The notes beneath the pieces are model-generated. The model saw nothing but the letters and a program-made list of their open reading frames with translations, did no database searches and was not told the DNA's origin. A program made the translations under genes and the position numbers. Positions 1,821 to 42,975 of a stretch of DNA of 64,000 bases are shown here, one piece after another. Origin of the DNA: Aneurinibacillus uraniidurans (GTDB lineage Bacteria; Bacillota; Bacilli; Aneurinibacillales; Aneurinibacillaceae); the NCBI RefSeq assembly GCF_028471905.1, contig NZ_CP116902.1:2516501-2580500 (forward strand), written 5' to 3'. Each line of letters opens with the position of its first letter. The first letter of the stretch is position 1.

Positions 1821-2088
1821 TTTTTGTGGAATGACGTAACTTTGGTGGGGAAGGGGGAGAAGAGAGAAGCCGTTCGCTCGGGTACGCTTGGCAGGGATGT
1901 ATGAGCTGTCCGCTCCAGGAACCCGGCGAACGTGCCCGCAAAGAAAAGCACAGGATGTTTTTTCATCGAAGGATTGCGGGCAAAGGCTCGTTCGCCGATC
2001 TCCTTCCGCTGGGGGACAAGCGTACAGGCGCTCTCTTGCTTCTCTCTTCTCTCCATCCCAACAATGTTTCGATTCACAAAAACAAAAC
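1821..2088. repeat. Structured 260-bp intergenic repeat, copy 1
   Basis: This stretch closely matches 34486-34745 in the same orientation over almost its full length. It has nested inverted repeats: an outer stem (1856-1870 with 2038-2054, first 13 bases paired perfectly), GGCGAACG at 1925-1932 with CGTTCGCC at 1989-1996, and CCCGCAA at 1935-1941 with TTGCGGG at 1974-1980. The ends (TTTTTGTG near 1821 and CACAAAAA near 2076) are also complementary. Terminal inverted repeats plus internal structure suggest a miniature inverted-repeat element or a mobile structured RNA/DNA unit. No plausible protein is encoded; short open frames here lack ribosome sites. Confidence 0.85.
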
Positions 2089-2161
2089 TTAGAGTGTACA
2101 GCAAAGCCGTACTAAAATCTGTGCTTGATGAGTGACGGATGAACTGCCCAACTGGCGGTAG

Positions 2162-2197
2162 GAGCGGACAGTTCACGCATCCCTGCCAAGCGTACCG
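2162..2197. repeat. Inverted partial copy of the 260-bp repeat core
   Basis: Read on the minus strand this is a 36-base match, with three differences, to the plus-strand core at 1881-1916 of the repeat just upstream. The flanks differ from copy 1, so it is a diverged relative or fragment in the opposite orientation. The two cores could pair with each other into a large cruciform. Confidence 0.75.
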
Positions 2198-2274
2198 AAG
2201 TGACAGATGCCTCCCTTCTCCGTTCCTCCACTGCACGTTGGACAGATTCATCCATCCCCTCAAGCCCTCACAGA

Positions 2275-18531: not shown

Positions 18532-18603
18532 GTTCTTCCTCCAACCTTACTTATTTTTATCAGCTATTATAGTATAGTGGCGAGAAAAATCATAGTACCG
18601 AGC

Positions 18604-18800
18604 AAGAGGGATATTTATTTTTCTTGCTCGTTGCCCTCCTACAAGGAAGCATACACTGTCCGTAAAACTGTCTCTCCAGGCGGAGTCCATAAAAAAAGCC
18701 ATGAAGTTTCACACTGGAGCATTATGTCCTCTGATCGCCTTCCGAGCCTGTTTTACTAAGAAGAAGGGCAAAATTCGCCTGAAAAATAAATATCCCTCTT
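18604..18800. repeat. 197-bp palindromic element with perfect 20-bp inverted ends
   Basis: AAGAGGGATATTTATTTTTC at 18604-18623 is repeated exactly, inverted, at 18781-18800. Inside, TTGCCCT (18631-18637) pairs with AGGGCAA (18765-18771) and GTAAAAC (18662-18668) with GTTTTAC (18750-18756), so the whole unit is a long imperfect palindrome. A second pairing, CGAGCAAG (18599-18606) with CTTGCTCG (18623-18630), would put the left 20-mer in a local hairpin loop, so two exclusive folds are possible. No ORF or flanking target duplication seen. A MITE-like element is the simplest reading. Confidence 0.75.
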
Positions 18801-18841
18801 CACTTCCTCACACCACCAAAGCTACGATTCCACATAAACAC

Positions 18842-18873
18842 AAAACACCCCGTGCTCTAAACAGCACGGGGTG
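18842..18873 (-). terminator. Terminator after cheR
   Basis: Eleven-base perfect stem CACCCCGTGCT/AGCACGGGGTG followed by GTTTTG on the minus strand, about ten bases after the cheR stop. Confidence 0.85.
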
Positions 18874-34485: not shown

Positions 34486-34745
34486 TTTTGTGTAATCCGA
34501 AAGCGTGGTGGGGGGAATGGGAGACGGGAGGAGCCGTTCGCTTGGTTACGCTTGCAGGGAAGCTATGACTGTCCGCTCCAGGAGCCCGGCGAACGTGCCC
34601 GCAAAGAAAAGCCAATGATGCTTATTCACCGAAGGATTGCGGGCAAAGGCTCGTTCGCCAGTCTCCCTCCGCTGGGGAATCGCGTAAAGGCGCTCTCTTA
34701 CTCCTCCCGTCTCCCACTCCCCGCAACGTTTTTGATTTACAAAAA
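34486..34745. repeat. Structured 260-bp intergenic repeat, copy 2
   Basis: Second full copy of the element at 1821-2088, same orientation. Outer stem GGGAGACGGGAGGAG (34519-34533) pairs perfectly with 34701-34715. These 15 bases differ from copy 1, yet both copies keep pairing, which is compensatory change. Inner stems GGCGAACG (34588-34595) with CGTTCGCC (34652-34659), and CCCGCAA with TTGCGGG, are unchanged. Ends TTTTGTG and TACAAAAA are near-complementary. It fills the gap between the rpsA terminator and yphA; no convincing gene is present. Confidence 0.85.
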
Positions 34746-39329: not shown

Positions 39330-39365
39330 CAAAAAAGCGAAGGGCTATATGAACACCCTTCGCTT
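39330..39365 (-). terminator. Terminator after the 54-residue gene
   Basis: Ten-base stem AAGCGAAGGG/CCCTTCGCTT with a TTTTTTG tail on the minus strand, starting at the stop codon of the small gene. Confidence 0.88.
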
Positions 39366-39528
39366 ACATCAATTCTGATACCGTATCAAACTGATCACGA
39401 TTGCTGCAAATGCACTGCTTAAACCCGGTTTCTATACATCCAAACTTGTTCAGTGAACCACGAAGTATATACCGTTCCCCACACTCCGAACAGCGGATCG
39501 TAACTTTATATCGTTCTGCCTCGTTCAT
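39364..39528 (-). CDS. Small zinc-ribbon-like protein, 54 residues
   Basis: Short open frame overlapping the prsW stop in an ATGA arrangement, with GGAGGAGG in the end of prsW as its ribosome site. Four to five cysteines are arranged as C-S-E-C (residues 14-17), C-I-E-T (31) and C-I-C-S (38, 40), a plausible metal site. The peptide is M-N-E-A-E-R-Y-K-V-T-I-R-C at its start. No family recognised. Coupling to prsW implies co-expression. Confidence 0.65.
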   Translation of the reverse strand: MNEAERYKVTIRCSECGERYILRGSLNKFGCIETGFKQCICSNRDQFDTVSELM

Positions 39529-42908: not shown

Positions 42909-42941
42909 ACTTCCAACCCCTTTCCTGTACCAACCGAACAA

Positions 42942-42975
42942 AAAAATCCTCTACAATATTGTAGAGGATTTTTTA
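42942..42975 (-). terminator. Palindromic terminator between gudB and bdr
   Basis: Near-perfect 15-base palindrome AAAATCCTCTACAAT and its complement, with A-run and T-run on either side, directly before bdr. Confidence 0.88.

Follow-up and report, generated by a model that had tools for sequence, protein, structure and literature searches.

A 197-bp palindrome between cheR and aroC of Aneurinibacillus uraniidurans is probably a diverged copy of a mobile, non-coding hairpin family

Main finding

The 197-bp palindrome that lies between cheR and aroC in Aneurinibacillus uraniidurans probably belongs, as a diverged and probably immobile member, to a family of mobile hairpins that do not code for protein. 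Membership is concluded because two covariance models, each built without the palindrome, match it over the full length of the models, including a small side hairpin. The DNA analysed is a stretch of 64,000 nucleotides, referred to as the window. The genome of the window is termed G000; G001 to G006 belong to the same genus, G007 to G010 to other genera of the bacterial family of the host (f1), and G012 and G013 are among the four genomes of the sister family (f2).

Structure and position of the palindrome

The 20-bp arms, described as exact in the preliminary description, are indeed 100% complementary and are separated by 157 nt. They form the longest perfect inverted repeat of the 64-kb window (arms at most 400 bp apart). 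Five perfect inverted repeats with arms of at least 14 bp were found in the window within 400 bp, and three of the other four sit in two strong family members. The maximum in 40 first-order Markov simulations was 14 bp within 400 bp. At 42941-42974 of the window a 17-bp perfect inverted repeat without loop was seen, which is unmatched by both family models. Inner pairing of the palindrome, read by eye, agreed with the earlier observation: TTGCCCT (18631-18637) pairs with AGGGCAA (18765-18771) and GTAAAAC (18662-18668) with GTTTTAC (18750-18756). The unit had therefore been regarded as nearly one long hairpin; the internal segments do pair, but the module folds as a three-way junction. The predicted RNA fold of the minus strand (18590-18815) has -81.0 kcal/mol (z -4.65), that of the plus strand -66.3 kcal/mol (z -5.14), and the DNA fold of the minus strand (18604-18800) -38.7 kcal/mol (z -6.88). 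The side hairpin of the palindrome reads GGACAGTGTATGCTTCC, and the same small hairpin is present in the consensus structure of covariance model R2 (see below). The features of the locus are collected in Table 1.

Table 1. Features of the palindrome locus and strong family members in the window
Feature	Position	Strand	Basis or remark
197-bp hairpin module	18604..18800	- (family-model orientation, cheR to aroC)	arms and matches of covariance models (CM) R1/R2
20-bp arm, aroC side	18604..18623		inverted-repeat search
20-bp arm, cheR side	18781..18800		inverted-repeat search
Competing local 9-bp hairpin, 14-nt loop	18599..18630		overlaps aroC-side arm; by eye
Side hairpin GGA-C-AGT-N4-GCT-TCC, C bulged	18645..18661	-	by eye and DNA fold
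cheR-side tail and flank, 88% identical to G005 element tail/flank	18793..18857		E 1.3e-15 (query 254-318)
cheR intrinsic terminator, presumed landing mark	18846..18873	-	terminator scan
aroC -10-like TATAAT, outside element	18566..18571	-	by eye; conserved in relatives
Strong family member, complete module and truncated inverted second	1823..2248	-	CM R1 1867-2041, 175 bits
Strong family member, single module	34486..34743	-	CM R1 34531-34703, 187.6 bits

One arm had also been placed in the loop of a separate 8-bp stem. Such a competing hairpin exists and excludes the palindrome fold, but its stem measures 9 bp. It is formed by CGAGCAAGA (18599-18607) and TCTTGCTCG (18622-18630) and begins in the aroC-side flank. 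When the local hairpin was forced, the fold reached -69.1 kcal/mol compared to -81.0 kcal/mol, and this cost of 12 kcal/mol leaves the idea of a bistable RNA weak.

The location between the cheR terminator and the aroC -10-like box was confirmed. The palindrome comes after the cheR terminator and shares the strand of the cheR transcript (minus), and a terminator-like hairpin occupies the same place in the sister species G005 and in other relatives (alignment by eye). A promoter scan of the locus listed no promoter; the aroC TATAAT was read by eye.

Membership in a structured repeat family

A search for further copies had been proposed as a check, and BLAST of the unit against its own genome returned the unit itself and no second copy. 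Blastn with the palindrome against phages and plasmids gave no match. Rfam assigned no family at gathering score to the palindrome locus, nor to any of the family elements scanned. A sub-threshold match to mir-563 (E 0.34) in the left hairpin of the G008 locus L206 was taken as chance. By sequence-only profile (nhmmer, models derived from 20 G000 copies) the palindrome had an E-value of 0.51 over the window, which is not significant.

Covariance model R1 was built from 29 module cores of G000 and G005; the underlying alignment, A1, contains 29 of 126 modules, picked for diversity. Model R2 was built from nine modules, seven of G008 and two of G003. R2 matched the palindrome at 18619-18778 on the minus strand with 40.3 bits (E 3.5e-8), and R1 at 18615-18784, also on the minus strand, with 27.0 bits (E 2.2e-6) over the whole model, where covariance-model E-values are to be read as rough. 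In the window R2 gave three matches at E<1, all of them family members, among which the palindrome ranks second. The best R1 match in the window without family link reached 17.3 bits (39331-39401); R2 gave nothing there at E<1, and the match was set aside as a chance hit. Relatives of the palindrome are detectable only with models that combine structure and sequence. The arms are perfect although the rest of the palindrome has diverged; this perfection may come from template switching between arms.

Distribution and anatomy of the family

With R2, modules were found in all 11 f1 genomes, from at least 5 to at least 119 in each, and in none of the four f2 genomes. All R2 genome counts are lower bounds (150 candidates scored per genome). 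Within the genus there are at least 71 modules in G000, 6 in G001, 5 in G002, 30 in G003, 16 in G004, 119 in G005 and 62 in G006; the other f1 genera have at least 45 (G007), 98 (G008), 12 (G009) and 49 (G010). R1 detected at least 96 modules in G000, 150 in G005, 6 in G006, 5 in G003, 22 in G007 and 13 in G008, and none in G001, G002, G004, G009 and G010. Among 398 genomes of the phylum R2 retrieved the own genome alone, in a search with strict filters and 7 scored candidates per genome that is weak evidence for absence. A degenerate pattern of 20 bases from the core hit one genome contig, of an apparently unrelated MAG, which was taken as chance; the same pattern had no match in viral contigs. 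In the open-access literature on bacterial repeats no description of the family was found.

A three-way junction is common to the R2 consensus and the fold predicted for the palindrome DNA, and in both it includes a small side hairpin, GGA(C)AGT-N4-RCTTCC. Each module, as one strand, would form a long outer stem, a core arm and this short hairpin with its bulged C, and the outer stem would drift in sequence with its pairing retained. The A1 alignment has 34 pairs, 18 of them changed on both sides, and 96.6% of the cells are paired; none of 500 shuffles was as high on any of five measures, and slid controls were far lower. A loose expression for the side hairpin fits 20 of 29 rows of A1 and 9 of 9 rows of alignment A4, and GGNCAG is present in 26 of 29 and 7 of 9 rows, respectively. 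Pairing retained with changing letters can reflect selection, or template switching between arms.

Larger arrangements were seen in G000 and G005. An end of the G005 cheR-aroC palindromes recurs at two more places in G005, and one copy used as query led to many loci in both genomes. Most of 20 long G000 copies consist of a terminator-like hairpin, module L, a middle part, module R and a second terminator-like hairpin; module R is related to L and inverted, and a shorter G000 type lacks the middle part. The fetched loci held 96 profile clusters (43 in G000 and 53 in G005), of which 94 contain a module. Twelve of 35 G000 element loci and two places of the window align to G005 element loci with flanks of more than 800 bp, and therefore many insertions are shared and old. 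Presence and absence were also found: the element at G000 1607474-1607971 corresponds in G005 to an ordinary terminator-like hairpin, and the one at G005 2800693-2801413 corresponds in G000 to a lone terminator-like hairpin. At locus L101 (G005 3213863-3214730) modules L and R of one element are separated by about 870 bp of other, transposon-like DNA, and the G000 counterpart is uninterrupted.

The terminator-like hairpins at the two ends (T1 and T2) of different G000 elements have similar stems and inner loops, which could mean that terminators themselves are dispersed. We tentatively regard them as terminators beside the element rather than as parts of it, but in one comparison of G000 and G005 T1 arrived with the inserted DNA and T2 was already present. 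For 92 of the 94 module clusters (two were too near the locus end) the ends were searched for terminators. An inward-facing terminator was found at an end of 70 of the 92 elements, and at both ends of 34, versus 269 and 3, respectively, of 2000 random positions, with element-overlapping positions skipped. Under a looser criterion, 99 of 161 element-free intergenic gaps had a terminator on one strand or the other, 44 of them on both. The terminator link in G000 and G005 therefore follows partly from the intergenic location. Because this location explains much of the link, the claim of a target rests on the copies in G008.

Recent copies in G008 are placed behind hairpins

Twenty regions of G008 were selected for similar R2 scores. 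They contained 21 long copies of a 262-bp type, counted as matches covering at least 240 bp; a 202-bp piece at L215, a 165-bp piece at L208 and inverted partial copies were excluded. The other 20 copies are 93.3-99.6% identical to the reference copy. Their ends are sharp (one copy, L221, has N at its right end) and their flanks are unrelated. Near-identical copies in unrelated flanks indicate that the family is mobile. No target-site duplication was apparent by eye among the 21 aligned copies.

A strong stem (score at least 17) is located 4-15 nt upstream of 15 of the 21 copies. Such a stem occurs in 3 of 420 shuffled flanks and at 36 of 1230 position-strands in element-free intergenic DNA of G008. 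At a stem score of 20 the numbers were 10 of 21 copies, 0 of 420 shuffles and 13 of 1230 intergenic position-strands. A lenient rule assigns 20 of 21 copies a stem that ends 4-14 nt ahead of the insertion, its lowest score being reached by 47 of 420 shuffles, and one copy has no recognisable stem. Folding of the 40-nt flanks reached -8 kcal/mol or lower in 17 of 21 copies compared to 39 of 420 shuffles. The last 9 bases before the insertions include 4-7 T. The target in G008 is a hairpin plus a T-tract. At L208 one copy was placed directly behind another.

The 262-bp type (L206-L225) has a hairpin of its own, which lies a few bases in from the left end and has a stem of about 19-20 bp. Elements of G007 and G010 have a left end that looks similar by eye, and a trace of it is seen in the cheR-aroC interval of G007.

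Possible routes of mobilisation

New copies would be made in trans by an enzyme that the element does not carry, and would be inserted close behind an intrinsic terminator, a few bases beyond its stem and inside or just behind the T-tract. The fixed orientation relative to the terminator, the use of a hairpin as target and the absence of a visible target duplication together suggest that both donor and target are recognised in a folded, single-stranded form, either single-stranded DNA or RNA copied into DNA. We infer from this a folded single-strand intermediate and mobilisation in trans. The two main candidate routes are HUH-type transfer of single-stranded DNA and reverse transcription.

Genes for Y1 transposases were present in all eight f1 genomes searched. 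Among 30 fetched Y1 loci 29 had no R2 match, and no mobilising gene was tied to the elements. At L259 of G008 a shortened module with most of the core arm missing (1845-1931, 28.9 bits, E 8.2e-6) lies about 220 bp from a decayed Y1 fragment; it does not bound the gene, and its sequence is absent from the other Y1 loci fetched. A possible, although rather doubtful, origin of the family is as a non-autonomous derivative of IS200/IS605-type elements (HUH, single-stranded DNA). Hairpins near both ends of the 262-bp type, T/A-rich bases before its left end, the absence of an apparent target duplication, the Y1 genes in every genome searched and the module at L259 are in line with such an origin. 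Most Y1 loci, however, lack a match, the ends of six intact Y1 copies look different from the element ends by eye, and with at least 98 modules in the 4.2 Mb of G008 one Y1 neighbour is expected by chance. A terminator requirement is not a known feature of IS200/IS605-type elements.

An expression for reverse-transcriptase motifs found none in the fetched loci, which are chosen stretches only. We consider it unlikely that the family is a SINE-like counterpart, namely a protein-free structured RNA with its own terminator-like stem and T-run that is reverse-transcribed in trans and placed at terminators. The three-way junction with its bulged side hairpin would then be a recognition handle, which would explain both the pairing kept under sequence drift and the placement of one copy directly behind another.

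The cheR-aroC interval in relatives

The cheR-aroC interval was compared over 12 loci. The distance from cheR stop to aroC start is 351 bp in G000, 681 bp in G005, 132 bp in G001, 228 bp in G002, 244 bp in G003, 235 bp in G004 and 236 bp in G006. In other f1 genera it is 174 bp (G007), 196 bp (G008) and 215 bp (G010), and in f2 1044 bp (G013) and 715 bp (G012). R2 matched G000 with 40.3 bits, G005 with 38.5 and 27.1 bits, and G008 with 20.8 bits in opposite orientation. R1 gave 173.2 and 165.8 bits in G005 and 27.0 bits in G000, along with echoes on the reverse strand and three hits of about 8 bits.

An empty site in relatives had been proposed as a check. No clear module is present in the intervals of G001, G002, G003, G004 and G006, five of the seven species of the genus, but chance-level R2 matches occur in four of them. 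Over the 12 loci R2 gave five further matches of 11.5-12.4 bits (E 0.38-0.63), of which four fall within the intervals of G002, G003, G004 and G006, where they overlap promoter and leader. These four score 11.9-12.4 bits (E 0.12-0.16 for 13.7 kb); G001 has none. Because the sequences are related, these four count as one event. The two weak-match alignments viewed contain large deletions relative to the R2 model. The intervals of G004 and G006 have 17 bp in common with the arm of a G008 element (E 8e-4). We tentatively take the weak matches as chance; alternatively, they may be an old remnant. In G002, G003, G004 and G006 a leader of more than 100 bp extends from the aroC -10-like box to the start codon, which G000 and G005 do not have.

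The G008 interval contains half a module (blastn, 112 aligned columns, 85%, E 9e-28). Given its opposite orientation, this is most simply an independent insertion, and conservation of the element at this site across distant genera with base changes that disrupt its pairing, named earlier as the finding that would refute the proposal, was not observed. The sister species G005 carries a two-module element at the site, and both flanks are conserved with G000: 65 bp are 88% identical on the cheR side and 64 bp are 91% identical on the aroC side. The interior did not align, and the palindrome as a plain vertical descendant of one G005 module was therefore rejected. We infer the following history of the G000 copy. 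The common ancestor of G000 and G005 would have taken up an element after the cheR terminator; G005 would have retained two modules, and in G000 the old cheR-side tail would have been joined to a module of another subtype. The distance of about 45 bp between terminator and arm is due to this old tail.

An unrelated one-off palindrome, or another single-copy MITE that folds like the family by coincidence, would fit the missing BLAST copy in the own genome, the non-significant nhmmer result and an interior unlike the orthologous G005 modules. We regard this as quite improbable: two covariance models made without the palindrome match it over the full length of the models, side hairpin included, the R2 matches at E<1 in the window are family members alone, and the tail is homologous to that of the G005 element. 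A regulatory function of the palindrome, as an RNA or a bistable switch acting on cheR or aroC, is very improbable. It would fit the stable folds of both strands, the second, exclusive hairpin and the covariation of the family. Against it stand a site without clear module in five of seven species, modules at many unrelated loci, a position upstream of the aroC -10-like box (outside the mRNA if this box is the promoter) and an alternative fold weaker by 12 kcal/mol. The copy is probably neutral, given its position past the cheR terminator and ahead of the aroC promoter.

Comparison with known systems

Group IIC introns are reportedly inserted downstream of terminator stem-loops, for which Robart et al. 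2007 is the work referred to. The target of these introns is described as a recognition sequence of 3-4 bp preceded by the stem-loop of a terminator or by a similar hairpin (PMC7923331, PMC3898094), and PMC10190682 describes a 5' stem-loop DNA target. Like mobile group IIC introns, the G008 copies are inserted downstream of a terminator-like stem-loop. Unlike these introns, they gave no Rfam group II match in the elements scanned, no catalytic domain was recognised, and 262 bp leave no room for a reverse transcriptase.

MITEs are short, non-coding, multicopy elements with inverted repeats, and the family resembles them in each of these properties. It differs in that it has no apparent target duplication, and no parent transposon was recognised among the Y1 loci covered. 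The preliminary description had favoured a mobile MITE over a leader; a mobile, non-coding family was indeed found, but neither a second BLAST copy nor a target duplication was seen.

REPINs and REP sequences are linked to RAYT proteins. The family shares with them the persistent multicopy intergenic hairpins (PMC8049555), and has inverted module pairs in G000 and G005. In contrast to REPINs, its modules are three-way junctions of about 160-260 nt, the target in G008 is a terminator, and no Y1 gene is tied to the modules. With bcr1 and other bacterial stem-loop repeat families it has in common, by description only (PMC2267715), that it is lineage-specific, non-coding, strongly folded and mobile-looking.

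Significance

Genomes of f1 contain from a few to more than 100 large folded elements each, which lie below every Rfam gathering score. Recent copies land after terminator-like hairpins, without carrying a gene or a recognised ribozyme. A terminator-like hairpin as target is familiar from group IIC introns. The mobiliser, once found, would provide a test system for the recognition of a folded strand as both donor and target, and would also inform how selfish DNA locates safe sites in compact genomes.
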